From contig CM027385.1 of the NCBI GenBank assembly GCA_015680905.1, positions 77,211,501 through 77,275,500 on the forward strand: a stretch of 64,000 nt of DNA, in the 5' to 3' direction. This DNA is from Coptis chinensis. Lineage: Eukaryota; Streptophyta; Magnoliopsida; Ranunculales; Ranunculaceae. A model generated the notes under the pieces. The model searched no databases and had not been told where the DNA came from. It saw nothing but the letters and a program-made list of their open reading frames with translations. Below are positions 1 through 47,399 of the stretch, piece after piece; positions within the stretch are counted from its first letter, which is position 1; the number at the start of each line of letters is the position of its first letter. Position numbers and translations under genes: made by a program.

Positions 1-491
1 GTACTATCAAAGAAATGCACTTTGCCTAAGGACGCTTCACCGAACTGCATTGCAGGTACATTTTAACAGGTCATCCCTATTAGAAGTAAAACCATTTTCT
101 TGCATATATGTATATATACTAAAGCAATCGACATAAATTCAAAGTGAAAAAGCATTGTACTCTCCATCTTGCTTGAATTTAGTAAATTTTATCAAGTATG
201 CAAATTCATTCCAAAATTTAGTGCTAAATCAAGAAAAGTACCTTATATGAAATATTCTTCTGGAAAGGATCAAAAGACAGTTTATGCATACATATTATTT
301 GTAAAATCAAAAACAAAAACCAAAGAACATATAAGCAAATTCAATCAATTTTTTTCTTTTTTTCTTTCTTTCTTTATGATGTACAACACAACTGTGTGTA
401 GCAAAACGAACACTGCTCATATCATTTAAAGCAAGTTAGATTATACACTTATCAACTAAACAAATGAAATAAAAATGAGATGTGCCTCCAG

Positions 492-649
492 CTAATTCAA
501 ATTAGAGAACAGTACCAACCAACTACACCATGGTGTAGCGCCAACAACTTTAATAGTAACAGAAACTATTTTCCGAGTTGGGAAGGAATGCCAAGAAGGA
601 ACCATAATTAAAGACTTGAAGTCACGGTCGTCAGGTGCCATTACTTTCT
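492..649 (-). other. Possible terminal exon of an unidentified gene
   Basis: An open frame of about 50 codons starts directly after a good acceptor (CTGCAG on the minus strand, exon from 649) and ends in a stop at 492. The peptide is rich in charged residues and looks coding (it contains APDDRDFKSLIMVPSW), but I do not recognise the family. GA-rich DNA at about 3,440-3,690 could be the 5' end of a minus-strand transcript ending here. I could not find further convincing coding exons between, so this may equally be a non-coding transcript or a gene relic. Confidence 0.25.
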
Positions 650-963
650 CTGCAGCGAGAACAGTTTCGGTTAAAAGAAAATTGAGTAGGAGCAATTTCT
701 AAATTGTGCACTAAGCTATCATTATACCTTGCTCATATCCAAATGGACAAACTCTAAACACAATTAGAATTACAAAATCAGGCCGCCACCAATGTAAAAC
801 TACCACCAACCCATTGTGTAAGTCTTAAACAGGGTCCTGCAGGTCCAAAAATACTTGTATAGCCTAGGATGTATTTTGTTCAGTCCCCTATAGAATTTAG
901 AGTGGAAGATATACTATGTTTCGACACTCAAACAGATTTTGCAACCTAAGCTGTGCTTTTGTT

Positions 964-1508
964 TATGATAGCGGTAGTAAAAGTTTTTTTTATGTAATCA
1001 TCTTCAGATGGATCCCTCTATGTAAGCTGATTATTAACACTCCAGATGTCCATTCCTCTCACACCATGGGCAAAACCAAGGTAACCTAAGGAAGCTCATT
1101 AGGTGGCATTCCCATATCAGCATCATAAACGAATTGGAGGACAGGGTCAGAAGTAATATGTAGAAAATATATTAATTGTTTAAAACCGAAATCTACTACA
1201 GACGATTGGCTCGATTCCCCATAAAATGGGAGCGAAGGACGTATGATAGCGGTAGTAAAAAAAAATTGTGTAAGCACCTTCAGATGAATCCCTTTGTGTA
1301 AGCTGATTATTAACACTCGATGTCCATTCCTCTCGCACCATGAGCAAAACCACCTAAGTAAGCTCATTAGGTGGCATTCCCATATCAGCACCATAAACGA
1401 ATTGGAGGACAGGGCCAGAAGTAATATGTAGCAAATATATTAATTGTTTTCAACCGAAATTTACTACAGAGCATTGTCTCGAATCCCAATCAAATGGGAG
1501 CCAAGGAC
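964..1508. repeat. Tandem duplication, unit about 278 bp
   Basis: Two adjacent direct copies start with TATGATAGCGGTAGTAAAA at 964 and at 1,242. The same landmarks follow in the same order: a TCAGATG motif, GATGTCCATTCCTCTC, the CTCATTAGGTGGCATTCCC block and an AAATGGGAG tail. The copies differ by substitutions and small indels, so the duplication is not very recent. Minus-strand frames in both copies have stops, and I assign no function. Confidence 0.8.
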
Positions 1509-2461
1509 TTACATGCGAATCACCATTGTTGCAAATGCTTGGGCAATCATATCAAAGACAACTACCAATCAAAATACTATACACATAACATATATAACAT
1601 GCACATAAATCTAACAGGAATGATATAAAACATGCTGAGTAGCAGAAACCGCAATAAAACTCGACCTTTCTCTTAAAATATGAGTGAGAATATATTAATG
1701 ACCTGGCTCGCTGTACCAGCCCTTTTAGAGCACGGTCAGAGTGCTCTAACCAAAGTTAATGCTTCCATGCTCCATAGACACAGTTGCTCTGTGGGGGAAA
1801 ATGATAGAAAATAAAACAATCATAGCCTGAAATCAAAATCAGCAAGACAAACCAATAAATAAAGTCAAGGGGAAAAAGTACATAACATAATGACAAACAC
1901 AAAAGTGGATAGATACGATATCATCGTTGTACTGGACGCAATAAAAAAGGACGCTAGGAAATTCAACATGCAACACATTAGTGCTTCAAGTTTTGATGAA
2001 TTTGAATTAGTGGTTAGTATTCGTATTTATTTTTCTTTGGATGCCGAGAGTAATAGTTATTACTTTAGGTACGTGCTGGTTTCGTCATTGTAGTAGTGTA
2101 ACTGTGTAAGCATTTACTTTCATAAGGTGTATGTCAAAGGGAAATTTTTTAAATAGCACTTGCAACTAAAAATATAAGGGTTGTTGTTCGCGAGTACACA
2201 TATTTTTTGGATTATTTGAATGCTTAAAGCTAAAGTAATTAGAAATTTCATACACAAAACTTGTATAAATATTTACTCACACTGATTATGCTACTAACAT
2301 TTAATACCACTAAAGACGATCATAGATGCCCAACTCGTTGAGAACATGATAAAGTTAAGAAGAAAAGGATATAAAAGTTCAATGCCAGATAAATTAACAC
2401 AATCTCCGAGTAAGCCTAACGATATAAAATAGTATCGACATCAACATGCATACCTTACATA

Positions 2462-2815
2462 GATTGGGTGCACTTATTTGCAAGACATTTTAAAAAAAAA
2501 GAGAATAGAGTAACGAAGAAAAGGCCTATTGGGAGACTGGGTGGAGAGATGGTTTGGAACAACAGCCTTAACCGATTAAAAATTGAAGTGTCAAAGCTTA
2601 GGGATTAAGGGAAGCAAGCACTGAAGCGGAAAGGCATTGGATGCACTTATTCGCAAGACATTTTAAAAAAAAAAGAGAGAGAGAGAGAATAGAGTACGTA
2701 ACGAAGAAAAGGCCTATTGGGAGACTGGGTGGAGAGATGGCTTGGAACAACAACCGATTAAAAATTGAAGTGTCAAAGCTTAGGGATTAAGGGAAGCAAG
2801 CACTAAAGTGGAAAG
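2462..2815. repeat. Tandem duplication, unit about 173 bp
   Basis: The block that runs from GCACTTATT (2,469) through AAGGCCTATTGGGAGACTGG to AGGGATTAAGGGAAGCAAGC is repeated at 2,642-2,815. The copies are nearly identical; differences are an expanded GA run in copy 2, a short deletion and a few substitutions. This suggests recent unequal exchange or slippage. No coding content is seen. Confidence 0.85.
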
Positions 2816-4570
2816 GCAAACTTTGCTAATTTGATATATTGATATCAATATAATAATATTGTAGAGACACCATGTTAGGCACCAAACAGTTCCAAAGTTA
2901 ATGGCATTACATAGTTCGCAAATAACAATGACATATACTAAATGAAAACATATCAAGACACTATGTAACGGATGCGCCCTATTAAGGTTAACATAGTGCA
3001 TACATAATCGGGTGAATAGCAAGATAAGACAAAAACCTAGCAGTCTCTCCACCCAGCTAAGAATATACCATTCTATTTGTTTCTTTGGCAAACCTAGCAG
3101 TCTCATTAGGCACAAACAAGCAGCACTGTGCGAGGGTGAACGATGGGAAGTCCCTCACTTTACATAGAGTTGTGAATTTTTTTAATTTGGTGTTCTGTTA
3201 ATGAAATATTCACAAAACTTTTTTTTTTAATACACACATATCAAAAACAAACCCTTAGCATCGCCAATAAAATTCATACGAAAAATGCATCAACCAATAT
3301 ACTAATTAAATGAAAGAAGCATCTTTTTTTGACAGAAAATACCAAACCTGTGAAATTGAAGCTTGTTCCAGCCAATAACAACCTCTAGCTATTGAAGAAA
3401 ATAGAAGCATGAAATTGAAGATTGTTTCGGTCATTGATAACATTAGAGAGAGAAAGAGAGGTGATTAAAAATTTGAACACCTAAAACTGTTAACAGAGAA
3501 TTTGAGGGAGATAATTTGATTTGAAGAGAGGAGAGTACCTGATTTAAGAACAGACAACAACGTTCGCTTTGTATAATTTCTTCAAAGTTCGTTCTTTTTC
3601 TCCAGATCTTCAGAGTTCATCTTCTGATTCGATTAGAGAATGAAATGAGGCTAGTGGGAGTGAGAGAGAGAGATACTTGGAAGGAATGAATCGCCTGTTG
3701 GGTTGACTGACTCATCTTTATCAAGCTAGGTTTTTTTTTTAGTTTTTTTGGTAAAGGTCGGAGGTGGGGTTTTGAGTTTTGACGAAAGGTTTTTTTCTCT
3801 TTTTCTTTTACTTCGGATTGTTACGCGAACATTTTCCAAAACTGGGCGTAAGTTTGTTTGTTTTTCTGCCGAAGCTGAGGTGTCCACCTCAGAGAAAAAA
3901 GGGGGTTGAGGTGGCTTTTTGGGAGCATTCTCAACTACTCGGTATTAATGGTCTTTGATGTCCTCTTTTGAATTAAATAGTTCAACTAGAATTTTTTCCT
4001 ATAATAAATTCCAGAAAAATGTGATGGGTAAAACTAAATCAAAATGCGAAAGAGGTAGTGCAGTTCCTTAAAACAAACCAGCAGAGAAGTTATTGCTCGG
4101 GCAAATAAATTACTGATGCTAGGATCTGATTCTTTTCTTCTTTACTCTTGGATTTTTGTTAGGTGGACCATGTGGCTAAATGAACAGCTAGAGCCTAGAG
4201 CTGCTTTCAGAATTTGGTTATGCTCGACTTTCCTTGAAAGCAAGAGGTGAATTTCTTAGTCATAGGAACCATTCTTTTCTTTGAGTTTAATTTTTGTTTC
4301 TCGGTTTCTCCCTATGTTTTATATACCTAAATAGTTATAGGCCATATATTCATCGTAAGGCAAAATGTGCGTGACATTCTACCAACGACATATAGTCAGA
4401 GACTCAAAGCCATATATCAAGCTTCTACTAACTAGGCCACATTCAAATCCAAACTCATATAGGCATAATGTTAAATACGTGGAAATTGACATAAAAAGTG
4501 AGAGTTCCAAGGGCACAGATAAAAGTTCACTAATAATGTTTAGAAAAATAAATGAAAGAACGACAATCAG
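2816..4570. other. Intergenic, no gene recognised
   Basis: AT-rich sequence with T runs and a GA-rich patch at about 3,440-3,690 that could be a 5' leader of a minus-strand transcript. Short open frames here show no family features. This is the 3' side of the lipase gene that ends at 4,571. Confidence 0.4.
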
Positions 4571-7500
4571 TTAGCATGGGGTGTTTCTCATGCTATGCTC
4601 ATCGAGCCAAGATATGACATCAACGAAAACTTGAGATATCGTCTCGTCAGTGTCACCTTCACAAAGAGCATGACAACCATCTTTATAAAATAGGATCTTC
4701 TTGTCCCGACTGCTAGCTTTCTCATACAACGCCTTACTCACTGACGGATCAGTCACAACATCACCCTCTCCTTGTAGTATTAACAATGGCAGAGTTACCT
4801 GTATCATATTATTATTAACATTATTAAATCACCCAACATCATGCAAAATTGGAACTGATATTTGAAAAACTAAGAGAGTTCATCTTTTAAGAAAACCAAA
4901 CTCCAATAAACCTTCATACTTAGCCAAATGCAATGTGAAATTACGCAAATGAAAATTGAAGTAGGATTTTCGTACTTCTCTTGATCGTTGGTCTATTTCT
5001 TGAGTTGTGTTGAGTAACTCTATGGCAGTCTGCAAACGTACCTTACCATAATAAGAAATAACATTATAGATAGCCTGCAATTCATGAAAAATAAAATAGG
5101 TCACATGTGCATCAATTGTTTTTTAAAATCTAGAAGACTCGGCCACATTTTCGTAGAATTAGAGAGCAAAGCTCACAGACATTCATCTTATGTTATGACT
5201 TAGGATTGCTCTATGCAATTTTAGTAAATAGCACCACCAGCAGGTGAATCCTTGATGGCACTCATACTGGCTAAGAAAGAAACTAAAATGCTGAGTTGTC
5301 TGAAACATGTGTTCTAAAACCTTGATATCTGAAATAGTCTATAACAGGAGAGACATGTTACATTTTGCTCTCTCTTTTTCAAGTCTCCGAATGCCAAGTC
5401 ACCAAAATTGTTATGCGGAACTAACTTCGCTCTGGGAAAAAACTTAGCAATACCAATCAGAAGCTTTGTCACTAACCAATGTGGAACCATATTATCTGCA
5501 ATCTATTAACAAACACTAAAGTAGATTAGATTCACATATCAGTATATCACCAATCAATAAGGCCTTGGTATAAACTTAGGTTCAGGGGAATACTTTGCAC
5601 ATAGGTGCAGAAAGAATTGCACCATCCCAGGCGTTAGGTTGTTTGAAGTGGACCTTCAGAGCAACTGCTCCACCCATAGACTGCCCAAACAAAAAGCTTG
5701 GGATGCTTTTGTACTCCTGGTTTTCTGTCATCCCACAGAGGTTATAAGTAGAAAGTACTATAGTATATTTCTGCGACTATGCGATCTCCGATTTTTTTAG
5801 CACGAGCAGTATCTAAATTCATGTTTAGCTGAAACACCTCAGGACAAACATGCTTACTTCAATTCCTATCCAACTTTTTTTTTTTTTTTTTTTTTTTTTG
5901 GATAAGGTTTCCTTCCTAACTAAACAAAAGTGATTAATTGTCGTATACCAGAATTAGAAGTAATCAGTACATAAATTAAATATGAGCCTATATAAAAATT
6001 CCACCATAAAGGAGGTGGTAAAACACCTTTGACTTTGGAGAAATGCTCGACAACATCATCTACGAGCAAGTCAAGTTTGGGGATATAGCCATGAAGACCA
6101 TCTGAAAGACCAAATCCAGGGTAATCCATCGCAAAAACTCCATATCCAGACGACGCTAGCTTCCTAGCAGTTCCTGTGGACATTAAATCGAAGCTAAATT
6201 TATTTCACTTTTATAGAGTAATATGAACAAATACTAACTTTTTATTAGCTACAAGTGTCTGTTACATGCCTTCAAAGAAGAATGTGCAACTGTCTCCATA
6301 AGGATGACAATAACAGACCAGTGCTTTTGGAGGAGAAGTTTTTGGCAGCCAGCTTTTTGAGTAAATTTGCAATCCTCTGGAGTTCTTCTTATATGACTGT
6401 ATAAAAGCATCTAAACTCGGTTAATAAATTTCGACTCGAGCATGATCACATTACTCTTGATAGGATGTGATGACATCAATCAATTACCAGCCAAGCACAA
6501 TGAACTGAAAGTCTTTGTAATAACATTTGTCATGCTAATAGTACGTAGAGACGCAAAGTGAAACTTTAGATGAAATTTTTGTTTTGGTTGCTAGTGCTTG
6601 CGAAACTAATAAAATCGAGTCAAACTGGAACACGCAAATTTAGAAAAAAAAAATAAACATGTTCCTACCATTAAAATAGAGGCTTTTAAACTATACTGAT
6701 TGAACTATATAGGTACCTCCTTCATTTTCAACCCATCGTATGACTTCTGCAACACCACCAGCGAAAAAGAGAAATTAGCTATCTCACTTTGTAGTCTGTG
6801 AACGAATAACTCATAGCACTTTGTTAAAGTATATAAAATGTTTGTATCCAAGTAGTCCTTCACTTCAGAATTAGATATCCAGATACATGCGAAAGATACA
6901 TATTTTTAGCAGATAGAACGCGAGGGTATGGGTGCGTATGTTAGGAAACATAAACGATATTTTCCATCATCAGCTAGGGTTATTGTTTGCACATTTTAGG
7001 ACTAATCTTTACATAATTACATCAATTACCTAGTTTGTATCATTTGTGTTTTTTTTAGGAAAGAACTAAAGGAGAAGAAATCAGTTTAGAAGCACAGAAA
7101 AAGACATTGATCGGGAAAGCTGAGAGAAGAGATCGAAGCATATTAAATTGTCCCAAACTCCCAATTATATCAGTACAGAAAAGGCATATTACCCGTCTAA
7201 AACCGTGATAAATCTTGTTAATGTTACAAAACTGAACATGATACTGATAGATAAAGAATTCTCATGCGTTGTTAGAAATAATTTATTAAGAAACTCATGT
7301 TATCCCCTACAGTTTGATTTGATCTTTCATGTGCAATTTCTGCATCATTTTCATTTTTATTTAGTTAAAACGTTCTAATTAGTAGTACAAAACCTTTTAT
7401 TCTATGCGCGATGTAGCTAACAAGTAGAGAGTGGCCGGCAGACAAGCTGGTAAGGCCCTTGGAAAAACAAGAGAAAATGACTAAAAAATACATCAAACTT

Positions 7501-9290
7501 TACAGTTGGTTTCAAAACAGACAACATACTTTTTTTTATTCAAATAAACATTGTACTATCAAAACATTTCAATTTAGTCAAATCCTCATATTAATTGGAT
7601 GGCATGCTGACGTGGGTCGTTAAAAATTTCCCCAAATCTAAATTTGCTTATGTGGCATTAGTTTCAACATTGAGAAATCCACCTACCATTTCGACACACC
7701 AACTCTTGAAATGTCAACTGAAAATCTGAAATTATAGTGAAATCGAAATTTAAGATGTTTGAAATTTAAGAGGCTAACGTTTTTTCAGAAGGTTTTGGGG
7801 GTTGGGGTGTTGGTTATTGCTTGAATCCTCAATCGGGCAATTAGGATTGTAACTGAGACGCGTAACACAGGCTAATCGATGAAATGATAGAGTTAAGAGA
7901 GGGGGCGGGCATATCTTTCTAAAGGACGGGGTAGCTGCAACCTTACTCATTCCACTACCAATAGGCATAGGGAATAAGTCATCAAGGGAAGAAGAATAAG
8001 TTGTTGTACCATTGAGCTTAGAATAGGCAGGAGAAATAACTTGTTCTAGCTAGTATTCATAAGGCAAACCACCAGAAACTGATACATTCCTGCAAAAATC
8101 CATAACCCCCTTTGCAAGAAAAAGGTAAGAAACAGAATGGATAAGTTTTGAAATCCACAGAAATTAGCGTTACAAAAAAGTGGAGAGAGGCGTTGAGTGT
8201 GCAGAGTGGTGCCCTTTTTATTATGACCTCGTATTTATGTGTCGGCAGACAAAACAATCTTCGACACCATAGGACATTTCTTCACTAATGACGCATTTTC
8301 CTTTTTCAATTCATTGTTGAGCATTTTTTGTTCTTCAATTCTCCTCAAAAGTTCAAATTCCATTCTATATAAACGACCAAATTCAAGCCCGTATTGCTCA
8401 TTACTTGTCTGCAATGTCCTAATCCGATTATGTAAATCAGCCAATTGGTTGGGCTGAACAGTTCTTGGAGGATCAAGATCAACCCACCCAAAAATACTAC
8501 AAACCCTAATGGCACACCCATAAAATCTTCTTCCTGGGTTTTGTGGGGTGTTGGAAACTTTTACAACAACTTGATACCCACATTCACAAATCGTACGAGA
8601 ATTAACGCGAGTATTAACTGAGCTGGAAGACATAATAAGAGAGAGGGCAAAGAGAAATGAGAAGAGAAAATTTAACCAGTGCTGGAGTGTTTGGGGTGTT
8701 TGCAACTAACCCTAGCTGTCATAATAAAGAAAAAAAAAGTTGCACTGGCGGGAAAAGTGATAGACAATGTGCAACTAATGCCACCTCAAATCTCAATTTC
8801 AAACATCTTAAATTTCGATTTCACTATAATTTCGGATTTTCAGTTGATATTTCAAGAGTTGGTGTGTCGAAATGTTATGTGGATTCCTCAAGGTTGAAAC
8901 TAATGCCACATAAGTAAATTTAGATTTGGAGAAATTTTTAACGACCCACGTCAGCACGCCATCCAATTAATTTGACGGTTTGACTAAATTGAATTGTTTT
9001 GAAAGTACAATGTTTATTTGAATAAAAAAAAAGTGCGTATTGTCTGTTTTGAAACCAACAGCAAAATTAGTTTGATGTATTTTTTGGTCATTTTCTCGAA
9101 AAACAATGCCAGTTCAACTTAGTAATAACTCTAGCAGAAATTTCACCTTTGGCATGCAATGGTCAATACCAAGCTGAATTTCCTTGAAAGCTTCACGAAC
9201 TCGACGCCTAGCAGGTGCTTCATCTAGGTTTGTATCTAAAATTTCCTGTAATTCATCTGTAATGCCTTCAAACTTCACTGCAGTAGCCAT
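4571..9290 (-). CDS. Monoacylglycerol lipase / caffeoylshikimate esterase-like alpha/beta hydrolase, 8 exons
   Basis: Predicted serine hydrolase of the plant MAGL/CSE-like family, acting on monoacylglycerol, lysophospholipid or phenolic esters; the substrate cannot be told from sequence. Minus-strand exons: 9147-9290, 6717-6746 (30 nt), 6270-6396, 6027-6173, 5594-5724, 5362-5502, 4976-5074, 4571-4798. They join in phase to 348 aa, the usual family length. Visible features are an N-terminal helix with DEAPARRR, the nucleophile elbow GQSMGG (Ser165), acid Asp286 in GEGDVVTDPS and His316 in CHALCEG. Family members usually have HGYG before the DxCTFFFEG block; here it reads HPYG (residues 89-92), which may affect the oxyanion region. 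Intron 3 would use a GC donor (AAG/GCATGT). The start at 9,290 (MATAV) is chosen because the upstream in-frame Met at 9,314 adds an unlikely leader. Intron 1 is enlarged by a MULE insertion. Exon joins are inferred, not from transcripts. Confidence 0.85.
7471..9097. mobile_element. Non-autonomous MULE with about 300-bp terminal inverted repeats, carrying a GRF zinc-finger ORF
   Basis: The outer ends are GAGAAAATGACTAAAAAATA at 7,471 and its near-perfect inverse ending at 9,097. Similarity continues inward to about 7,768 on the left and from about 8,793 on the right. The 9-bp direct repeat GAAAAACAA flanks it at 7,462-7,470 and 9,098-9,106, the target duplication size of the Mutator superfamily. 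No transposase is present; the interior holds one GRF-type ORF on the minus strand. It lies in intron 1 of the lipase gene, about 40 bp downstream of the exon 1 donor and in the same orientation as that gene's GRF cargo. Confidence 0.9.
8235..8633 (-). CDS. GRF-type zinc-finger protein inside a MULE
   Basis: Single-exon ORF of 132 aa starting at MSSSSVN (8,633); an in-frame Met at 8,705 would add a hydrophobic leader. Near the N-terminus are the features of the GRF zinc finger: CECG, then NPGRRFYGC, a further Cys, and FGWVD. The GRF domain binds nucleic acid in other proteins. The C-terminal half is a predicted coiled coil rich in Leu, Glu and Lys. Short plant GRF proteins of unknown role are common, and whether this one is host-derived cargo or an element gene cannot be decided from one copy. 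The frame is intact, so it could be expressed from within the lipase intron. Confidence 0.7.
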   Translation of the reverse strand: MSSSSVNTRVNSRTICECGYQVVVKVSNTPQNPGRRFYGCAIRVCSIFGWVDLDPPRTVQPNQLADLHNRIRTLQTSNEQYGLEFGRLYRMEFELLRRIEEQKMLNNELKKENASLVKKCPMVSKIVLSADT

Positions 9291-9677
9291 TCTTCCTCCC
9301 CTATGTTCTAACAAAGGTTCATAATAAAGAAATGCCTCTAGAAGTGATTGAAGAACAATTATTGAAGATACAATAATAATGTATGAGGTGATGACAAAAT
9401 GATGCGTGTGGTGTGGAATGTATCGTGCAGTGAGATGATAAGAATTTTAGTAGAGTTTTGGTGTTAGATACCAATGCCTTGTGAGTTCTGGTGTTAGATA
9501 CCAATAGATTATGCGTGTTCATACTTTTGTGGACCCAGGATTGAGATTTCTGTTGCGAAAGAAGACGAAATCTCATATAGTGAACGAAGAGAAAACGTAC
9601 AACAAAGTGTAAGCATAACAAATGCATTTTATTTATTGGCGGAAAATATTATACAAAAGTGATAGATTATATTAGAA

Positions 9678-9895
9678 CTAGGATATGCCGGTGCCTACGG
9701 CCCACGAGACCTCGATGCGCCTGCGGCGCTACCACAATAACTCGTCACGCCTTTGGTGCAAGGCTTACGCGCGCACTCGGCGCGAAACAACTTATCACGC
9801 CTTTGGTGCAAGGCCAGCCGCGCCTTCGACGCGAAATAACTCGGCACAAGGCGTACACGCGCCTTCGGAGCGTGTACAATATACTTATGGACTTG
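9678..9895 (-). repeat. GC-rich Helitron 3' terminal region with hairpin and CTAG end
   Basis: A GC-rich island in AT-rich surroundings with three internal near-repeats of the form CGCCTTTGGTGCAAGGC (plus-strand sense). On the minus strand it ends TCTCGTGGGCCGTAGGCACC, GGCATATC, CTAG, then T. A diverged version of the same tail occurs at about 11,580-11,690. Short open frames crossing this island are unlikely to be genes. Confidence 0.65.
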
Positions 9896-10151
9896 GGGTT
9901 AAAGATAATTATTAGAAGGCAAGTGGCTTAGTATTCTCAATTCTCAAACATCTTGGACCAACAGGCGGAACATAAAGTGGAAACCAAAGTTAATTTTCAG
10001 CCATTCCAAAATCCAAAGGGGATCCGTATAGACCAGATGTGTCTCTTAAAACAACAGCCTTATTTGTACGAGTGTCCGCATGGACCCGGTCATTAAAAGC
10101 ATTTGTACGAAAACTTGAAATGATATTATCCATATGGTTTTCTCGAAGGAC

Positions 10152-11293
10152 TTAAACCAGTACACGCACCGGTGGGTAGGAAAACCTGGCAGCAATGTCT
10201 TCAATCTTCTCTGAGTAGCCACTATCTAAGATCTTTGAATTTCTGAAAAACCCTACGACATGATTGCATGTTTTCTCAGAAAATGAAAATAAAGAAAATA
10301 TTACAGATTAGACAGTATATACAAGACTATCAAAACAAAGAAAGTGATAAGGCCCTCATGTACATACAAATATAGCAGTCTCCTCCTACACTTCCAAGTT
10401 TTCAACAGTAGCCATATTTCTTCCAAAATTGGCTATACGCGTAACAATGCCACAGCTTCAAGGGTTTTCACATAATTAAATATCGCAACTAATTTGAGCC
10501 CTAATTGTTTTCACATAATTATTGCACACATAAAAAGCTATTGCATGCACATAGTAACAAAGGATGACAAACAGGAGAGAAAAATAGGCTAAGGGGGTGT
10601 TTGGATCTTATTTATTTATTGCCAAAAAGTGTTTATTAGTGAAAAAATAAATGTGTTTGGTTTCTATTTAAAAAAATAGTTTTTCATCTAAAAAACATTT
10701 TTTGGTCCCAAAAACTTGTTTTATGATAATTAGGTAAAACTTGTTTTTCAAGTTAAAAAATTTTTTTTTAAAGGAAACACTTTGGGTGCTAAAGTCAAAT
10801 GAATTCTCCGGATGTTTTAGACTTTAATGATTTATGCCACGATATGCCAAAATATATCGAGAAACATAGTGCTAAATCTGATTTTATAAAATAGCTTTTA
10901 AGAAAAATCACAACCAAATATGTTTATTGAAAAACTGTTTTTAGAATAAATACTTTTTCATAAAAATATTTTTTAAGAAAAAATGATTTTTTAAAAAAGT
11001 GATAACCAAACACCCACTAAACTTGGCAAGCCATCCGGTGTAGTATCTGCCTTCAGTTGTTCCAATAACTCCCGTAGAGCAACAACATACTACAAGAGTC
11101 AATGGCATCAGCCATCAATGATAATGGAGTAAGATATTGAGCTCCAATTATTATAGAATTAATAAAGATTCACATGCATGATTGTACTGAACAACTTTGT
11201 ATTACTTACATGCATGAGCTTTGCCTCATTCTGTTGATTAGGTGCCGCGCTAAGCAACCTTATCAAGTTTATCTCAGTCTTGCTGACTCCCAT
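10152..11293 (-). pseudogene. USE1: 5' fragment of USE1-like SNARE gene (three exons, truncated)
   Basis: Exon 1 (11210-11293) encodes [18 protein letters not shown] and on to KLMH, with a GTAAGT donor. Exon 2 (11023-11089) encodes LRELLEQL and ends near PDGLP. Exon 3 (10152-10225) contains YSEKIEDIAAR and ends in TAA after about 73 codons in all. This matches my recollection of the N-terminus of plant Use1, an ER-Golgi retrieval SNARE of roughly 240-270 aa. The SNARE helix and C-terminal membrane anchor are absent. A coding-looking stretch continues at about 9,985-10,150 in the same frame past the stop, but I cannot place it in USE1. Position between two Helitron 3'-end-like sequences suggests capture. 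The family assignment rests on memory of the N-terminal pattern. Confidence 0.6.
10593..11017. mobile_element. Tourist-like (PIF/Harbinger) MITE, copy A
   Basis: A 425-bp AT-rich element with ends GGGGGTGTTTGG and CCAAACACCCAC, flanked by TAA at 10,590-10,592 and 11,018-11,020. It has no coding capacity. The same family occurs inverted at 53,672-54,111. It lies in the USE1 fragment's second intron, whose donor (minus strand A/GTTTA) is only five bases away. Confidence 0.85.
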
Positions 11294-11579
11294 GACAAAA
11301 TTTGGAACAATTAACAACTTTTTTTCAGATATCATCTATAGTCTAAAAATTTCCATTTTTTTTTAAAATTCCTTAGACAATACATGGTCTCTTTTGAGGC
11401 ATATCTTCAAACAGATAAATAAGAATTTCTACGAGTTGAATAAGTATGAGAAATAAATAAGAGCATGAACACACGCACCGCACACAAATACTGAAATTTT
11501 CGTACCTTTCTCATATAAAGTTCCACAAAATTTGGAGTTAGCTCGATTCAATGACGAGATTGGGCAGTTATCAATTATC

Positions 11580-11695
11580 AGTTATGCCCATGCCTACCGC
11601 CCACGAGACCTCGACGCATCTGCGCGCTACCCCGATAACTTGTCGCACCTTCGGTGCAAGGCTTACGTGCGCCTTTGACACTACCAATAACAGTC
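11580..11695 (-). repeat. Second, degenerate Helitron 3'-end-like sequence
   Basis: On the minus strand this segment parallels the 9,678-9,895 tail: a CCTTGCACCGAAGGTGCG block, a GGTAGCGC block, GAGGTCTCGTGGGCGGTAGG, then GGGCATAACTGATAA. The terminal hairpin pairing and the CTAG are lost. It sits between the Rep/helicase gene and the USE1 fragment, in the same orientation as the intact 3' end. Confidence 0.6.
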
Positions 11696-12356
11696 GAAGA
11701 AGAAAACCATGATCTGCAAGAAGTTTGGATAGAACCTCATTGGTTATTTTTGACTCTCCACTGTTTTGAATCCTGTAAGAAGGATGGGCATACAATTAAC
11801 TGTGATTGAATCCAGCAAGTGTATCAACAGAAATGCATTAAATGGATATATGAAGATGTGAAATTTCGTCCATCTTCTAAATGTACTTAAACATAAAACA
11901 ACACCAATACAAGCATATATCAATAAAATATGAGAAGCATAATAGATTAATTGATAAAACAGTGTTCCACCAAAGTGAGGGTACATTGAGGAGAAATCCA
12001 GCAAAAGATTACGAAGAAGGGGCCGTAAGACCACCCCACAAAAGTATGCCCTGAGGAGTAATATCATTATTTACGATCACAACTTGTTCATAAACCCCAT
12101 GAGGACCTTAATTTGAATTGCCAAGGTCAGCACCTCTGTTGTAAATCTCATGCCTGAAACTGACCACGTTGCAAAACAGGTTGTGAAAGACTCTTGGCTA
12201 GTGTGAACATCTATTCAACTGCAGGAAGTAAAGTTTTTAAATAAAGTGAGTGCAAATAGATGGACTTGTTGAATAAGTAAATGTAAACAACCATGAAAGG
12301 AAAATAAAACTAATAATAAGGAAAAGAAACTACTTATGCACTGAACTGACAAATGC
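11696..12356. other. Non-coding spacer within the Helitron
   Basis: AT-rich sequence between the degenerate 3'-end-like segment and the end of the helicase frame. A short minus-strand stretch near 11,700-11,790 reads ESKITNEVLSKLLADHGFLL, which could be another captured exon, but I do not recognise it. Confidence 0.3.
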
Positions 12357-15300
12357 TTAAAGCAAGACTTCAGGGTATACGACATTTGTAGTAAGTTTTT
12401 CAGCGTTTGGAGGTAGAAGAATACTTATGCGGGCTGCGGAAGTGCACCTGGATAATGCCACATATAACTGGCCATGGCTGAAAACTTCAGTTCGAAGATC
12501 GATTCCCACAAACTTCACAGATTGTCCTTGTGATTTATTTATAGTCATGGAATAAGCCAAACAGATAGGAAATTGTCTTCTTGTCATATTTAAAAGAAAA
12601 TCTGAAGAAGATGGTGACAAAGAGATCCTTGGAATAAATACACGGTTACCCGATTTTTCACCTGTAAGAATTCTGGCCCAGATAACGTGTGGTTGACATT
12701 GCAACACCATCAAGCGAGTCCCATTGCATAACCCATCTCTGGGGGCAATATTGCGTAGCAACATTATTGGACAACCCTCTTTTAGCTTGAGTCGAAATGG
12801 TGGCAGACCCGTGGGATCAAGTGAGTTTAGGTACTCATTTGGATACTAATTAATATTTATTGGATTATTTGCATCTGCCTCATCTAACTTGCAGCAGCCA
12901 GAAAAGTCATAGTTTCTCTTGGGAACATACATAAAGCTGCTACATTAATGGCATTGACATCATCATTCCTCGCAGAAAGAATTGTCCGCTCAGTTAAATA
13001 GTCAGGGGTGACAGTGGAAGTTTCATCCAAATGAGGGTAAGTAGCAGAAATCTGGTCCTGAAGATGTGTGCAATGATGGATCGTTGAGGGTAGCTCAATA
13101 ACCGCTTCAGGATCGTTTCCAACCTGATGACATAAAATGTGAAATAGAATATTATGAGAATTCTAATATAGAGGAATATTATAAATTAGGACAGAAATGT
13201 GCGCACCTTTGTTAAGAACTCTGCAAATAGTAAATTCTCATAAGTGCCATGCTCTAATCTCATGTTCTGTACCAGGGTGAGAACATTGACGTGATTCCAA
13301 AGAAAAGAGCATCGCAAGGAAGCACGAACAATTTGCTCTCGGGACCCTCTGGGTATAACTGGTAGGCATTGACGGAAGTCACCACCAAGAACCACAGTAA
13401 TCCCCCCGAATGGGTTGTCATTGTCTCGAATATCACGAAGTGTGCGATCAACAACTTCCAAACAGAACTTGTTTTGCATCGGGACCTCATCCCATATGAT
13501 TAGGTTAGCTTGTGCGAATAATTCAGCTTGTGGTGAACGCCATGAACCCATATCTGAGTTATCCATAATATCTAATGGGATGCAAAAGGTTGAGTGAGCA
13601 GTCCGACCACCTGCCAATAGCAAAGAAGCTATTCCGGATGAAGCCACCATAATAGTAATGTGTCCTTGAGTACAACACATAGCAGCAATGGTGTTGTAAA
13701 CAAAAGTTTTTCCTATGCTGGCTGCTCCATTCAAGAAAAATAGTCGTCCGCTGTTATGAGCTACTGAATCTGTCACTTCACTATATGCAAAGTGTTGCTC
13801 AGCATTTAAGTGGATGGCATTGGCATGTGCCTCTTCATTGCGTGGGTCAAATTGAAATTGCCTTTGCTCCCATATAAGTCTGTTCCCAACAACCAAGCTC
13901 CAATTTCTAATTGAGAGTGGAATTGTAGGAAAATGAGCAAGAGTTCTACCACCTGACTCGTAGAGAATATCATTTAGGAGAAATAAGCCATAATCTTGTA
14001 CCTGGGCATCTATAGGATGAGGAATGAAGAACATGGTTTGAAGCTTGTGTGGGAGGTCATCACAAATGCTTTCGCAAAATTCATTCCATAAGGCTTCGGG
14101 TTGCACCGGATTGCACTCTATGAGAATAATACATAATAGTCGACGAAGTTGATACCCAGTTTGCATGATTGCAGCCTCTTGTAAACATTGCACCCATTCT
14201 CTGTCGTCTTCAAGAAGTCCACGCATAACACACGCTTCTTTGAAAGTAGGAAGCGGAGGACCATTTCCAATTCTCTTTAGATTATCAAAGGATTGCGGAC
14301 CTTTTACAACAGTTAGAAGTAACCGCAAATAAAACCGCTCACCAGAGTTAGGACTTGCAAAGTACATTCTGCCAATAGCAGGTGCTTGAGTCCTTTTTGT
14401 CCATCTATGCCACCTTTTACTCCAAACATAATGTTCTGGAAATTCTTGATATGTATGCCCTCGTGCATCAGGGTCTGAAGCACATCGCTCAAAAAATGTA
14501 GTTAGAGTTGACTTTTGTTGCTGAGCCCTTAAGAGAATAGCATCTGTTGATTCATTAGGATTGTAAACTACTCGGTGCATTCCAGGGAGATGAAGTGTTA
14601 ATCTCATAACAGACGACTTCTCTTGGTGAAGAGAAAACCCGAACAACCTCCAAACCGCTTCAGGTGGCCCGATATATCGTGCATCTAAATATTGTTGTAT
14701 CTCATCCAAGTCATTGAACACCACTGTTGTCTTGTCGTGTCCTTTGAATATGTACTTGTGAATGTATTTGACACAACATATCCCGGCACAAACTTCGACA
14801 TTAATATGGCAATCGAACATCTTAGAAAGATAAGGATTGTATGGAACAACATCCCTATTATCAACTTCATGCCCTCTAACATTATATTTCTTGTCGATTA
14901 ATCACGGCGGCGATGAATAGGATATCGGTCTTATCCATGGTCGTAACATTTTCGAAAGCACGGGGATACTGACTTTTGCAACGCCTATTTACCATACATG
15001 GACAACTTGGATTTTTTAAGCCACATGGTCCATGAACCATATATTTGATAACAGTGCGGAACAATTCAGGTTCTGTATCTAGATCAGAAAATTCAGCACA
15101 AACAATGCGGTCAACCTGAGCAGGCACACGAATTTTGTCTTGATGTCGAAGATATATAAGGGCGTGCATATGTGGTAGACCACGTTTCTGAAATTCAATT
15201 GTGTAAACATGTGCAACAGCAATACCAAGCACACCCTTGTCTCTGATCTCTCTCATCAAGGCTTTTCGTTTGAGTTCAAACACACGGGCTACCACTTTCG

Positions 15301-17080
15301 GTCGATCAGTAGCAGTTTCGTTCTTCTGCAAGGCCTTAATAACTTCCACCCAATACGGGTTTGCAATCATGGTGAGGAATATATCTGGATGGTTGTTGAA
15401 CCGAGTTATAGCCATTGAGTCCTGGAATATCTCAAACATATTCCTTGGACTGCCGACGTATGATGCTGGTAGAACTACGCGCCTTCCAACTTGATCTGGA
15501 TTTAAGGTTTCTGCTGGGACATTAGTGAGATTTTGATATAATTTAGCACGAAGTACATCTTGCCTAAATATGTAGTATCGTAATCTCTTTTGTTCAGTAG
15601 CAGCCCATGCATCAACTAAGAATTCCTGAAATAGTTTTTTCCCTTGCAGAATAGAAGAATATTCGTTGGGGCGCTGAAACAGCAGGTAAGAATAGAAGTC
15701 CATCTTTGTGAGGCGGTCAGCAGTGGGGGATGAAGTTGAGGGGTCTGAACGCCTCAGATCTGGTCACCACCCAAGCTCTCCATGAGGAAACATTAACACA
15801 TAGTGTAAAGGTAAGTAAGCTGGATGACATTCACTGATATTAACAAATTCATTTCCCCCTTTACGATAAATCACAATGTCTCGCATACTGTCCCGCTCAC
15901 TGCCATCTCTGGGTAAAATAATAGCAATCTCATCAGCTGATGGCACGTTGTAGCGGCGTCGGTCAGTGGCCGCACTATAATGTAAATAAGCATGGATGTT
16001 GAGATTTTCATCATTCCTAACAGAAGCCTATCTAAGAACCTCGTATGCATGGAGGAAAGTGTCAAAGAAACGGTTATATTGGAGCATAGTTTCATGCAGG
16101 ATCCTAAGAACATCTACATCCAGATTAGGATTTCGAAGCTGTTGAATATCCACTGTTACACTTGGATCATAAATATAGAGTTGAGAGTACGTTGCCTGTC
16201 TGCCTGGATCGTAAATAAGAGCCCCTGTTTGGTGTCGTAGTTCTCCATGTATAGTGAAAGGTTGTAGACCTCGACCAACAAAGACACGTTCATCAGCACC
16301 TAGACTTGTAAATGCAAATGCCTGATTGTATTGTCTTCTGTACTTTCGAAAAGACTTTGACTTGCGATCATCTCCCTCATACAAAGCTTTAAGGGCAGCA
16401 GGCAACATCTGCAATGGAGGCATTTTTATTTTCCCTTGCAAACAGCAAGTCCCAAACCGAGGATTTGCTAGCGACGGTCTACTCAACTATTCGTCTTTCC
16501 AATGAAGTGCATGGCAGAAAGGACATTGAACATTCATTTCCCCTAAAAAGTGACGTCCTTGTTCAATTGGACGGTTAAGAACATTAGAAGGAAGTACATC
16601 ATCTTCATCGTCTGTCATGTCATCATTTCCATCATATTGTTGTTGTCTACATAATAGCGAACGTGTTAGCAAAGTAGATGAAGGTGCAAATAATGATCAA
16701 TGTTTCGATAAGAACGGGCGTATACCTTGCATTTTGGTGATGCGATGTTGAAGCACCATTTGATGTTGTTGGCTGTGGTATCGCATGAAGTAATGCTGAG
16801 GTTGAAGACTCGGGGGGGAGGGGGTCATACGCTGTAGAGAATACATGTAAGAGTTTACTGTAAAAGTCAAGATCATACAGGTAACAAATAATTGCCTATT
16901 TAAATACCTTGCATTTTGATGACCCATTGCAGAATTAGTCTGAGCACGTGATGGGAGGAAATCTATAAATAGCCTTACAGGATTAAGATGTCCCACGACT
17001 CGTTGAAGAGATTCAGAGGAAGTGAGTAGCTCGAATCCAGGAATAGGTGTAATAGGGCTATGGTGAGTTGGGCGTCTCAC
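12357..17080 (-). pseudogene. Helitron Rep/helicase (RepHel) gene, disrupted
   Basis: Minus-strand pieces in order: CPFCHALHW N-terminal region (16487-16672), 16028-16486, 15764-15946, 14882-15703, 13186-14820, 12881-13124, 12357-12764. The HUH endonuclease is seen as GLPHMHALIYL and the two-tyrosine motif [13 protein letters not shown]. The PIF1-type helicase follows with GAASIGKT (Walker A, usually richer in Gly), [20 protein letters not shown] and the C-terminal INKSQGQS and YVALSRCTS. Breaks: an in-frame TAG at about 16,487 and TGA at about 15,764, a frame change near 16,030 and another near 14,900. A plausible intron (13,125-13,206) joins the helicase parts. It would nick and unwind DNA for rolling-circle transposition; this copy cannot make the full protein unless the breaks are sequencing errors. 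Confidence 0.9.
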
Positions 17081-17499
17081 AGCTTGAGGCGGAGTAAATC
17101 ACGTAGATTTGGAGGAAGGATATTTTGTGAGGACCCGGGCAACCGCTGGAAACCAGATAAGACTGGTGTGGTAGATTGTGCTAACAAACAATGCGAGTTA
17201 TTGTTTTGTTTATGGTGTTTTTCTCATTCCCTTCTAACACGTTGTGCCACCATTCTTTTTGTTAATATCTATAGCAAAGGAAACAATATGAAAATCTATA
17301 TAACAATAGCTATAAATGTGTTGGAGTAGTGACACCCCATGAAATTTCAAAAATAAAATCAATAAAAAAACGAGACAGAAAGTAAAAGCTCTATAGTAAC
17401 ATGATAGACACTATAATACATTTGGGTGGAGAAATAATCGTAAACGATGGTAGAATAAAACACATTGACAATATTAATATGGGAAGTTCAATTCGAAGC

Positions 17500-18066
17500 T
17501 GACCTGAGCACCAGACGATGGTTGAAGAGAGGGAGGAATGTCATCCGTTGGGTGCTGAACAATTAATAAATATAAAATAAGAGGAATGCATCAAAGCAAT
17601 GATGTATAGATAGTAAGTCATGAGGTGACTGAAGTAAGACCTGGAAGGCACGAGGTGGTTGAAGATTCAGCCTATCTTGGGGAGGAATGTAAATACGTCT
17701 TTTTTGGTTTTAAGGTTCCTCAGACGGGTGCATTGGGCGCTTGCCCTTATCCACATTTGGTCGGGTGGGTTGCTTAATAAAGAGAAATCAAAAAAGATAA
17801 GATAAATCAGAAAAGATTAAGTCAATACTAAGCAATACATAAGAAGGAAAAAAAAGTTAATAATTAGGAGCAACGGACATCGCACAAGTACAAAGGGTTG
17901 TAAAATTCATAACAAAATAAAAGAAAAGTGTGAGAAGTTGAAGTAGTACCCGAAAGACAAGTGGTGGTTGAAGGGTCAACCTATCTTGGACTGGAGCAGA
18001 ATTATGCTTCTCATGGTTTGAAGGATCCTCGTAAGGATTCATGGGGCGCTTGCCCCTGTCCACCAT
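17500..18066 (-). repeat. Duplicated exon-like segments upstream of Rep
   Basis: Two minus-strand segments, about 17,640-17,760 and 17,945-18,066, encode related peptides: GKRPMHPSEEP, a stop, then PPQDRLNLQPPRAFQ; and GKRPMNPYEDPSNHE then VQDRLTLQPPLVFR. Each is followed by a possible donor. A third short exon-like piece at 17,500-17,560 (HPTDDIPPSLQPSSG) may belong to the same transcript. They look like duplicated 5' exons of the Helitron protein, function unknown. Confidence 0.45.
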
Positions 18067-18879
18067 TTGGGAGGTTGTGAAGAAGAAGGCATGAACGCAA
18101 AATGCATGAATATGTCCAGCTTACATCACATAATTCAAATTAAGGTACACAATCAGAGCATCATTCTTACAAGTACTTGAATGTAAGAGTGAAGTCCCAG
18201 TATACTCGGGGAACTATGGAAGCGAGTTCCAAATATCTATCTACACACTCAATCCACTCCTGAATGGCATCTGTTATGTGAGGAACTACCTAGAAGCATA
18301 TGACAATGGCACGAAATTCAGTCAGCAGAAGAAAATCAGAAAAGTTTTTCAGACATCCATAGAGCATAATGAGTTGGTGACAATTAAGCGTTTGAACTAA
18401 CCTGTACTGTTTTTCCAAGATAATCTCCCTTTCTTTCTTTGTCAATTACAGACTGTTCCATATGAAGAAAGTGTAAATCAATATAGTAAGAATTAAGTTA
18501 CAAAGTTGCACAAAACTGTCAAGTTACCGTGAATAATAAAAAGTTCATATTAAAGCTTTAAGGATTTGCATATGGCAGGTTTTAATACCAAAAAAAATAA
18601 GTTTGTTGTATCAAAGTAGGCCCTGTTTGCTTCCACTATTGCGACACAATAGTAGACGCCACATTAGCTAAATTAATAATAATATAAAGCCAAATTAATA
18701 GAACAGAGAAAAAAGACAATCCCAAAAAGCTATTAATCCAAGCTTTTAAATTCAAATTAATAATAAGATAATTTAAATTCAAACTTGTGGGGATAAACTG
18801 AAAATGTCTTACCTGATGAGCAGAGATGTGTGAGAGAGCGGCATCAACTAAAAGCTAAAGGGAGCGACGATCGGGAGAG

Positions 18880-19645
18880 TTGTGTGAGAGAGCGGCATCA
18901 ACTAAAAACTAAAAAGAGCGAGAAGAGAGAGGCGGTCGGGAGAGTTAGATTAAATTGAATCCAATGAGGGCGGATGTTGATATGTGATTTTTTTTCCGAA
19001 AAAAAAAAACACACCACAAATTCCACTTCATTTCTCACAAATCTAAGCACAAGAAGTAAAACCTATAAACCCCATAAACATAAACATCTGGAAAGCATGA
19101 TACTACACAAACAAGCATTAAACGCATCGAATAAGTAGACACCATGAACACAAACAAAAGAAAATAGAAAATCACAGCCCATCACGCACAATGTAATCTA
19201 TAAAAAATCAATCCCCTAAAAACCCCTCTTTGTTTGTCATAATAAATTTAAGCAACTCAAAAAGTAACAAATAACCAAATCCCAGAGTCATAAACAAAGA
19301 AAACCCAAACCACATTCCCAAACATTAACACAAATACTTCTTCTTTTTTCTTTTACTTCAACAGAACCCTTCAACAAATGCAACAGATATAATAGCAAAA
19401 CCCAACTCTAAAAAAAACATGTTTTCTACAAAATAAAAGATGTCCTCGAAGAACCCCAAAGTGAGTGCAAGTTCTTACCTTTGCAATGTTGCGTGTTTTT
19501 TTTTGCACCACGAGAGCAAGAAGAGAAAAGAGAGCAAGAAGATAAACCGAAAAGGTCGTACCAGCTAAAGAGAGCGAGAAGAGAGAGACAGTCGGGAGAG
19601 TTAGAGTAAATTGAATCCAATGAGGGCGGATGTTGATGTGTAATG
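18880..19645. repeat. Direct repeat pair, about 80 bp, near the Helitron 5' side
   Basis: The sequence containing GAGCGAGAAGAGAGAG, GTCGGGAGAGTTAGA and CCAATGAGGGCGGATGTTGA occurs at about 18,915-18,985 and again at 19,568-19,645. Within copy 1 there is a further short tandem repeat of TGTGTGAGAGAGCGGCATCA at 18,821 and 18,881. The roughly 600 bp between them is A-rich and without coding signal. Confidence 0.7.
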
Positions 19646-19759
19646 CAGCACACAGTCCAGTATGAGTTAGATTGTCCACGTCACAAGCTGAGAAAACATA
19701 GTTAGAGCTGTAGGATGGGGCTCTATGGGCCCCACACTGCTCTGTATTGTTAATATAGA

Positions 19760-32565: not shown

Positions 32566-34494
32566 TTATTTGAGAGTATACATTTGTAACATCTTTGATT
32601 TCATAATCATACGCAAAGTTTCAGATTTCGCACCTTTAACAACAAGTCTTTGTGAAATATGTGAAAGCTCACTGTAACGAGCAGTGGATTCTGGATCAAT
32701 GTCACATGGAATTGCTTCTCCATAGGAGTCATAAACAACCTCATCTATTATATTCTTAATCCATCTCTTCAAATAGTATTGAGATGGTAAACTTGAAAAA
32801 TTTAAGTCACGAAAAAGTTTTAAAGCATGACAGCAAAGAACCCCATGAAACTCAAACTTTCTACAAATACATTGCACTGACTTATTGGTTACATTAAAAG
32901 TAACTGTACGACTCCTTTTCCTTCCCATTTCTGCAACTACATAAATATGAATGGTATCCTCTTCCTTCTCCAATGTCAAACAAAGATCAAGAGTTTTTTT
33001 GTACTCATCTTGAAAAAAATGAAACATAGTTCTTGTATAAACCTTTGATGCTTCAGATTCTACCAACCACTTGGACCACAAGTTCGGTATGGTTTGTTGT
33101 GTCTTATTATCAGCCTCCTTTCCTCTTTGACGTCGACTGGCCATTGCTTTGTTGTATTGGTCCACAAACTCTCGAAGAATGGTACTACTTGTAAAATAAT
33201 TCTTCAAAAACCTATTAATGCTTTCACTCATTTGCGTTGTAGTTATATCCGCACAAAAAAAATCACGGGCATGCACTTGTGCCCACTTGCGGCGCAATTT
33301 ATACAATGCAATCAACCAGTCATTCCTTTCCAAACCATAATCCTTAAGCAACAGTTTCCAACTCTTTTCAAATTCTTCCTCTATCTCTGGATTGTATATG
33401 CAGTCCTTGAACCGCTGTGGAAAACATGGAAATTCACCAATTAGTTTCCCCAAATGCTTTGTTCCATTATTTAAGATATGCCACAAGCATAATCCATGGT
33501 GTGCTTCTGGAAATACTACATTGATGGCTTTTACAATAGCCTGGGACTGATCAGTAAATATAGTCTTTGGTTGCTTTCCTCCCATAACTTCTAAAAACGT
33601 TCTAAACATCCAAATAACAGCATCACTTGTTTCACCTTCTAACAAGCCACACATAAATATTACAGTTTGTCCATGGTTGTTAATGCCAACTATCGGTGCA
33701 CAAACCAAATTATAGTTATTTGTTCGAAAAGTTGTATCAAAGCAAATCACGTCACCAAACAACCCATAATCTCGCCTAGATAATGCATCACAAAAGAAGA
33801 CACAACGAAGCTCACATTCTTTGTTAGTCAAAAAAGAGTAAAAGAAATGTTTGTTTTCTTGTTTCTTTTGCTTGAAAAAATCAAGAAGACAAACTGCATC
33901 ACCCTTTTTTCGTATCTCTTCACACACCCTTTGCAGTAAATTGTTACAATCAGATTTGATGAAGTTCAAGTTCTCAGCTCCTCCAACTTCTGAACAAAAG
34001 TAATAATAGATATCTGATGGTTTGAGTCCAGAATCTCGCATTTTTTTCATAATTCCAGCTTGAGAATCTTTGACACCTCTGTGAGACCTAAGCAAATAGG
34101 AATTTGATGGCGGGACAAGGCTATGAGTGTGTTCCACTATGAGCTTGGACAACACATATTTTCCTTCTTTGTTAAGCGTAGTCTGAAATTTGGCCATACA
34201 ACCGAATCGTCTCTCTTCTCTCTTTTTTGTAGGAGTCTTGACCTTTGTGTACGCGCCTTCACAAGAACAACAAAGAGTCTGAAGCACTATTTTAGTATGA
34301 TCTCCACGATGTTTGTTTGTCCTTTTTATCTTAATGCTAAACCCAACCAATCTTGCATATTCATTATAGCAGTCATAATACCTCTTTCACAATTGTCAAA
34401 GAGCATTCCCAGTTTTGGAATCAACTCCTCGTGGACAACTTCTTCTGAACCAACTGAATTATGTTCAATAGCAAATTCTCTTTCATCCATCTAA
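32566..34494 (-). pseudogene. FAR1-related MULE transposase, one frameshift near the N-terminus
   Basis: The main frame (32566-34350) has 594 codons. It shows the FAR1 DNA-binding zinc-finger region (LQTLCCSC, FGCMAKF, VEHTHSL, residues about 23-78). The MULE catalytic core follows, with Asp205 in CFDTTF, Asp267 in IFTDQ and a CLWH motif, and then a SWIM zinc finger CIC...CCH at about 494-508. Upstream, an ATG at 34,494 opens MDEREFAIEHN to PKLGMLFDNCE, which is the usual start of this family. It runs into the main frame only through a one-base shift near 34,370-34,390, where NEYARLVGFSIKIKR continues. It would cut and move the MULE; FAR1/FHY3 light-signalling factors are domesticated relatives. 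If the frameshift is a sequencing error, the protein is complete. Confidence 0.85.
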
Positions 34495-40584: not shown

Positions 40585-40602
40585 TTGGCCGTCTGTGGTT
40601 TT
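40585..40602 (+). other. Probable primer-binding site region
   Basis: TTGGCCGTCTGTGG directly after the 5' LTR resembles the TTGGCGCCGTCTGTGGG found at this position in many plant Ty3/gypsy elements, with two bases missing. The identity of the priming tRNA is not certain. Confidence 0.5.
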
Positions 40603-40689
40603 CGATTCTTGGAGAACCACTTGAGATCATCTCTAATTCTCCGATTACGAGCATGGTTAGCATAGAAGCACAAGTTCAACCTTGCTCAC

Positions 40690-46290: not shown

Positions 46291-46364
46291 AATCTTTTGT
46301 TTTCATTAATGTAAGACAAGTTTTTGTCTTGTGATACTATCTATCTCCGTTAGTTGTATTGGTG

Positions 46365-47175: not shown

Positions 47176-47399
47176 GATCAAGTTGCTAGTTATACACAAA
47201 TACGGTAGCATGCATACACATCCCAAAACAACGTTCCATGACAATGCGTCATCACAACTTCGTCCACCGATCTGGGGATTACCGGAAATCCGGATCGATG
47301 ATCATTACAAAATAAACAAAGTATAGAACGCCACTTTCGTGGAAACCGGTCCTCGAACAAAAAGCGAACTTCGGGGCAAAGCTGAAAACCACGACTCTA

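Follow-up and report, generated by a model that had tools for sequence, protein, structure and literature searches.

A Helitron with two 3′ ends around USE1 exons

The window, which is the whole stretch of 64,000 nucleotides of Coptis chinensis DNA analysed here (G000:C9:77211501-77275500, plus strand), contains a Helitron that carries exons of USE1 between two 3′ ends. The genome searched comprised 935.6 Mb. The features of the element, all on the minus strand of the window, are given below; here and throughout, a slash marks the boundary between two sequences.

9,678-19,759, minus: whole Helitron unit, about 10.1 kb, with 5′ TC at 19,759 and 3′ CTAG at 9,678
12,357-16,486, minus: Rep/helicase coding region in several ORFs, the stop near 12,357 read off the sequence
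11,578-11,690, minus: tail B, the inner 3′ end, without its hairpin and terminating in CTGA, last base 11,578
11,568-11,581, minus: repeat CTGATAA TTGATAA straddling the terminus of tail B, its first four bases being that CTGA
9,888-11,573, minus: captured USE1 segment, colinear with the donor C6:7877771-7878753 apart from a later MITE
11,210-11,293, minus: USE1 exon 1, 28 protein letters, weak match to Pfam Use1 1-30
11,022-11,089, minus: USE1 exon 2, matching the native-type C4 locus, its 3′ part also matching C6
10,590-11,021, minus: MITE, with an 88.6% copy at 53,664-54,114 and a gap in the C3 and C6 alignments
10,126-10,242, minus: USE1 exon 3 region, starting near 10,242, from the C4 match (10,249-10,126) and translations
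9,877-9,889, minus: right joint, donor ...GTCCA followed by the leader TAAGTATATTG, with a 2-bp CA overlap at an A/T position
9,678-9,877, minus: tail A, the outer, working-type 3′ end, CTAG/T, from genome matches and family alignment

Both a Rep (HUH) domain and a PIF1-like helicase are present, as in Helitrons (Pfam Helitron_like_N, E 1.9e-50; PIF1, E 5.6e-67), in ORFs at 13,186-14,820, 14,882-15,703 and 16,028-16,486. The protein is decayed, recognisable but with its reading frame split, and for that reason no activity is claimed for it. The 5′ terminus is TCTATATTAACAATACAGAGCAGTG, opening TCTATATTAACAATACAGAG at 19,759, and the 3′ end at 9,678 reads GGCATATCCTAG/T; the 5′ TC and the 3′ CTAG with a 4-bp hairpin inside it conform to the Helitron end rule (5′ TC, 3′ CTRR). 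A relative, L003, has the 5′ end A/TCTATATAACAATACAGAGCAGTG, and its alignment with the window element begins at the same point, 19,759. With regard to the rule of insertion between A and T, the 3′ neighbour of the window element is T and its 5′ neighbour is T, not A; the 5′ neighbour of L003 is A.

Along the element lie the Rep/helicase, tail B, USE1 exons 1-3 and tail A, all in one orientation. An initial annotation made from the letters alone had described this order of helicase, degenerate 3′ end, host exons and intact-looking 3′ end, and both tails do lie where it placed them on the minus strand. They are direct copies of each other (9,684-9,774 versus 11,583-11,672, 84.6% over 91 bp, E 8e-21), and their alignment scores 116.5, when the best of 500 shuffles reaches 27.5, which rules out two unrelated GC-rich tails; on this comparison, tails A and B belong to one family. 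Tail A looks intact, with its hairpin and CTAG/T, and tail B has lost both hairpin and CTAG, again as annotated. The best DNA fold reaches -1.2 kcal/mol in tail B, -3.5 in tail A and -4.1 in tail B of the C5 copy described below, which retains the hairpin and ends in CTAA. Against shuffles, z is -0.31 for tail B, +0.63 for tail A, -0.88 for the C5 copy and -1.14 for a family-typical end; given that none of the hairpin energies of tail A, tail B and the C5 tail differs clearly from shuffles, the hairpin assignment rests on position and family conservation.

The end at 9,678 does have other copies, tail A giving 47 genome matches (40 of 336 candidates scored). Twenty-two loci, the window included, were aligned at this end, and 20 were readable, L038 and L039 being beyond the reach of extrapolation. 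CCTAG or TCTAG followed by T was found in 14 of the 20, with differing flanks; the exceptions are C after CTAG in L009, CTAA/T in L012 and L017, CTAT/T in L011, and L004 and L006, where no tail A-type end was found at the aligned point.

Other elements were observed in the window. The 5′ part of the Helitron holds a CTP synthase exon piece (18,200-18,510, minus strand; Pfam CTP_synth_N E 2.7e-4, below the cut-off), and positions 18,507-18,243 are missing from the C3 and C5 Helitron copies. A MULE-type-looking element at 7,471-9,097, in which an ORF encoding a GRF zinc finger is flanked by inverted repeats some 300 bp long (91%), adjoins the first exon of a Hydrolase_4 gene (ATG near 9,290), which we take to be monoglyceride-lipase-like. 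Elsewhere lie a FAR1/MULE-transposase-like ORF of 594 codons (32,566-34,350, minus strand), a probable LTR retrotransposon (39,999-52,686; terminal repeats 89.6% alike, GC about 0.52 versus about 0.36 around it) and large self-inverse, palindromic repeats (54,309-55,048 and 59,236-59,673).

The USE1 donor and the two joints

Genome searches with USE1 stretches gave 6 and 7 matches, and the Use1 profile recognised two loci elsewhere (best E 4.4e-15 and 5e-20), which lie on C4 and C6. The match of the window itself to Pfam Use1 is weak (profile 1-30, E 0.018, below the cut-off), and the identity of its exons is settled by DNA homology to these two loci, whose Use1 matches are significant. Window 11,425-9,888, without the MITE, matches C6:7877803-7878753, and the C6 locus runs on into downstream USE1 exons. 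The K2P distance is 0.053-0.111 between window and C6 and 0.330 between window and C4, and C6 is the nearer of the two native-type loci and the best donor found. Its USE1 is decayed, with a stop in a later exon, and lacks window 11,190-11,077, which comprises intron 1 together with the first part of exon 2, as well as about 110 bp equivalent to window 11,552-11,440; CTCGT is read in the alignment at both edges of the latter stretch, and this gap is probably a deletion in C6. The second USE1 (C4:4490.7-4488.1 kb) is more distant and apparently intact. Since two native-type loci with downstream exons exist elsewhere, the USE1 of the window is captured and not native, as the initial annotation had supposed. 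The MITE, which shows a TTA duplication as read from the sequence, was inserted after the capture, given that the C3 copy and C6 are both without it. An isolated 37-bp perfect copy of USE1 intron (L041, G000:C5:53701310-53701346) resembles a templated insertion; no further match to the window element was found within 3 kb around it.

At the left joint, 19 of 20 window bases from 11,573 match C6, starting four bases past the CTGA of tail B, a score reached by 0 of 2000 random 30-mers. Host DNA colinear with the donor thus lies directly past the old 3′ end, which is what read-through predicts, and the captured part does start at the degenerate end, as anticipated. Element and donor have about 10 bp in common here, CTGATAACTG, a match that could reflect descent instead of microhomology. 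The bases right after the CTRA of tail B are TAAY and those of C6 are AAGC, so that two of four differ.

Tail B followed by CTGATAACTGATAAC was found genome-wide, with up to 3 mismatches, at 11 places, namely the window, C5 and nine elements outside the USE1 search matches; a reversed control pattern had 0 genome matches. The CTGATAA repeat stands past tail B in all ten sampled relatives without USE1, with more than three changes in L077; these ten were a sample from a larger search, in which 40 of 284 candidates with the window 3′ region were scored. Three of them, followed outward, have about 1.2 kb of other DNA with AT-rich arrays past the repeat, beyond which a family tail, with the end CTAT, was met in one case. 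In the USE1-less relatives L068-L080, AT-rich arrays of the GAACATTGATTGTTCATACC type flank a 0.8-kb fragment outside tail B. Because the sequence past tail B is common to USE1-less relatives, this tail may have ceased to be the outer end by the time USE1 was captured. The repeat may, alternatively, be a relic of host flank, in which case the USE1-less relatives would descend from carriers.

At the right joint, donor homology ends at GTCCA (9,888), and tail A is joined at donor CCA/TAAG. Tail A opens with the leader AAGTATATTG, found in 9 of the 38 family tails examined and in all nine preceded by a GGCAYGGGCAT-type pseudo-terminus, three of these with a base or two off. The leader scan used a loose pattern with 5 substitutions, which missed the changed leader of the window itself; single chance matches, one in L012 and one in the window off the joint, are removed from the 9/38. 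Among the 38 tails, all seven having the 3′ non-coding region of the window are double. By this comparison, the outer end is an old, ordinary family tail starting with the TAAGTATATTG leader of double-tailed relatives, and not a cryptic terminator in downstream host DNA, which is what read-through predicts for a new end.

Short matches between element and donor are present at both borders, about 10 bp on the left and 2 bp on the right, as expected of a template switch. The pre-capture flanks occur separately, the left one in the repeat-bearing USE1-less relatives and the right leader in double-tailed relatives; among the relatives examined, no single one has the (CTGATAA) repeat and the TAAGTATATTG leader side by side. 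A flanking repeat of 13-15 bp, reached by 5/5000 shuffles and 2/5000 random pairs, was picked out post hoc and carries no weight here. Tail B joins the 3′ non-coding region where the close relatives rC4d and rC4e retain about 330 bp more. That tail B aligns where double-tailed relatives have their inner end had suggested an insertion of USE1 between both ends of a double tail. Tail B is, however, of the outer-tail sequence type (CGTAGGCA, AAGCCTTGCACC) and is therefore not simply that same inner end.

Copies and relatives of the composite element

Five Helitron copies at five places have parts of the window 3′ region in common, so this region has moved as a unit. The C3 copy has the helicase, USE1 and tail A and is without window 12,156-11,467, including tail B. 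In the C5 copy, the helicase and tail B are followed by USE1 as far as exon 2, after which come a PTR2/NPF exon and a short family tail with CTAG/T; the switch (L029 7,160-9,530, minus strand) leads from within USE1 exon 2 into a PTR2/NPF transporter gene, represented by its last exon and its 3′ side, and the tail measures about 50-60 bp. The C7 and C4b copies have the helicase, invertase exons replacing window 11,852-10,083, the last 196 bp of USE1, and after this remnant the leader and the start of tail A. The C7 copy ends in CTAG/T, and a scan of the available C4b stretch found no CTAG/T end. The exons that stand in these sister Helitrons instead of tail B and most of USE1 are those of a vacuolar invertase (GH32; L042:4400-5863, C4:80168258-80166726). 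A 1.5-kb repeat flanks the C3 copy on its 5′ side (C3:69715098-69716577) and recurs in the C5 copy, where it sits within the helicase (C5:81995603-81994118).

Between window and C5, K2P is 0.041-0.078 in the Rep/helicase, 0.036 in the link, 0.041 in USE1, and 0.058, 0.120 and 0.041 in three 3′ non-coding pieces; the set leaves out the tail B rows of C3 and C7, which compare with tail A. The similar values in Rep/helicase, link and USE1 argue that these parts travelled together. From these distances and the composites at other loci, the capture of USE1 is older than these copies. Mosaic histories among the copies are likely, since the helicase-only and combined trees both join C3 to two non-carriers, rC4d and rC4e (82/88 and 82/84). 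The USE1-less repeat-bearing group stands beside C5 in the 3′ non-coding tree (midpoint root, 93/90) and in the combined tree (97/96); in the unrooted helicase-only tree it is separated (98/95) from rC4d, rC4e and each of the five carriers, and is not joined to C5. As two of the three trees place this group beside C5, its members may have lost USE1. Three relatives outside the group have readable ends; rC4e (...GGGCATATACTAG/T) and rC4f (...GGGGCATACCCTAG/T) are single, and rC4d is double-tailed.

Routes of USE1 acquisition

Gene pick-up by Helitrons is disputed between read-through and filler-DNA models. With a donor, both joints, several composites and USE1-less relatives in one genome, the models give different, checkable predictions. 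We lean towards a template switch, that is, capture of filler DNA beside an already bypassed end, as somewhat the more probable account; the weight given to this reading and to read-through is a judgement, not a computed value. Tail B, the first 3′ end of the Rep/helicase Helitron, would already have been internal. DNA synthesis, in transposition or repair, would have stopped within the CTGATAA repeat at tail B and resumed on a C6-type USE1 locus where about ten bases match (CTGATAACTG). Some 1.7 kb of colinear host DNA with introns, comprising the promoter side and exons 1-3 of USE1, would then have been copied, before synthesis went back to a family tail at CA/TAAGTATATTG. This would have placed USE1 outside the old end and inside the true end, and the composite, with tail A as its end, would later have transposed to several sites. 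The donor, the borders, the colinearity, the shared copies and the family ends are observed; the switch itself, its trigger and the order of events are the inferred parts.

The template switch is favoured by the repeat past tail B in USE1-less relatives (10/10 aligned, 9/11 pattern matches), by the ten shared bases at the left joint, by the age of the outer tail (leader in 9/38 family tails) and by a donor that retains downstream exons of USE1 and whose upstream 11.8 kb gave no match to the window element. Moreover, the same lineage replaced its 3′ interval elsewhere, with vacuolar-invertase (C7, C4b) and PTR2/NPF (C5) exons. Against it, donor-like DNA sets in exactly where a complete tail stops, an outright prediction of read-through; two trees leave the CTGATAA relatives as possible USE1-loss derivatives of a line beside C5; outside the repeat group only rC4d of three readable ends is double-tailed; the 10-bp match could be descent; and the right joint falls on A/T, the Helitron target rule. 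Two of the three trees place the USE1-less relatives next to C5, a carrier, and this keeps read-through a live rival, possible although the less probable. On that account, the end of a Helitron that stopped at tail B, just upstream of USE1, would have been missed, synthesis running into USE1, and the outer end would have come from another Helitron. Most simply, a product ending in ...AAGTCCA would have inserted at A/T (GGGCA/TAAGTATATTG) in a double-tailed Helitron, the true end of which was used in the next jump. The donor match four bases past CTGA (19/20, 0/2000 controls), the colinear, same-strand arrangement in window and C5, the right joint precisely at A/T and the experimental precedent of Helraiser (Grabundzija et al. 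2016, PMC4778049) all suit this reading. It is at odds with CTGATAACTGATAAC past tail B in USE1-less relatives, with TAAY facing AAGC in C6 (2/4 mismatched), with an outer end that is not a host cryptic terminator, and with C6 itself, whose upstream 11.8 kb shows no match to the element where read-through expects a Helitron at the donor. A Helitron-bearing C6 allele may since have been lost; the upstream DNA of C6 and C4 is too diverged for their comparison to be informative. The trees do not decide between the two, since the USE1-less relatives may have lost USE1. Of the read-through capture first proposed for this locus, the start of donor DNA at tail B holds; the order of parts is no proof of read-through to a new terminator, as tail A is an old family tail with its leader and the repeat past tail B occurs without USE1.

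That two independent Helitrons lie side by side, the first bearing tail B and the other having a separate 5′ end along with USE1 and tail A, is improbable. Helitrons prefer to insert near or inside one another, according to the portion of the maize study available (Dong et al. 2011, PMC3288121), but helicase, USE1 and tail A recur together at C3, and tail B and USE1 at C5, and these shared composites contradict independence. No second 5′ end was seen between the tails in a scan that is weak evidence, as it allowed substitutions only, matched none of the loci scanned and missed even the 5′ end of L003, which has one base missing. A native USE1 interrupted by Helitrons, to which exons and introns in genomic order would correspond, has a negligible probability: it is contradicted by the C4 and C6 loci, where the downstream exons sit, and a search of window 1-9,677, translated in all three minus-strand frames, gave no Use1 match at E ≤0.01, a limit at which short exons could escape.

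Double 3′ ends are already known from maize, and the window adds an unusually complete set of parts. In the accessible part of the maize account, multiple termini characterise 28.7% of helA elements, and CTAG is missing from 99 of the 100 pseudo 3′ ends sampled there (PMC3288121). The window resembles these elements in its inner pseudo 3′ end without CTAG and outer end with it, and in the stepwise gene capture among related elements. Nested insertions were inferred there, whereas here the donor and both joints of one fragment are mapped and, unlike in the maize cases as presented in that part, USE1-less relatives reveal the sequence past the inner end. Read-through has been shown for Helraiser and, as in Helraiser/Helibat, host DNA lying beyond a 3′ end that was bypassed has joined the element; the window differs from what is set out in the portion available of that paper in that its outer end is an old family tail, not new host sequence, and its inner end may already have been internal (PMC4778049). 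For insect Hel1, filler DNA was argued (Han et al. 2019, PMC6544945); host fragments inside both termini, border matches fitting filler DNA and stepwise gain are alike, and the window differs from Hel1, as described in the accessible text, in belonging to a plant family with capture at an old terminus.

The locus carries a warning, in that the pattern of dead end, gene and live end is by itself no proof of read-through. We also consider, as a speculative and rather doubtful proposal, that a dead inner 3′ terminus is a recurrent acquisition site, where breaks or nicks, perhaps made by Rep, for which the old end may still be a recognised site, would be mended with copies of other DNA. If this were true, Helitrons with two 3′ ends would repeatedly gain fragments between those ends, USE1 in one branch and a different fragment in the L068-type branch.
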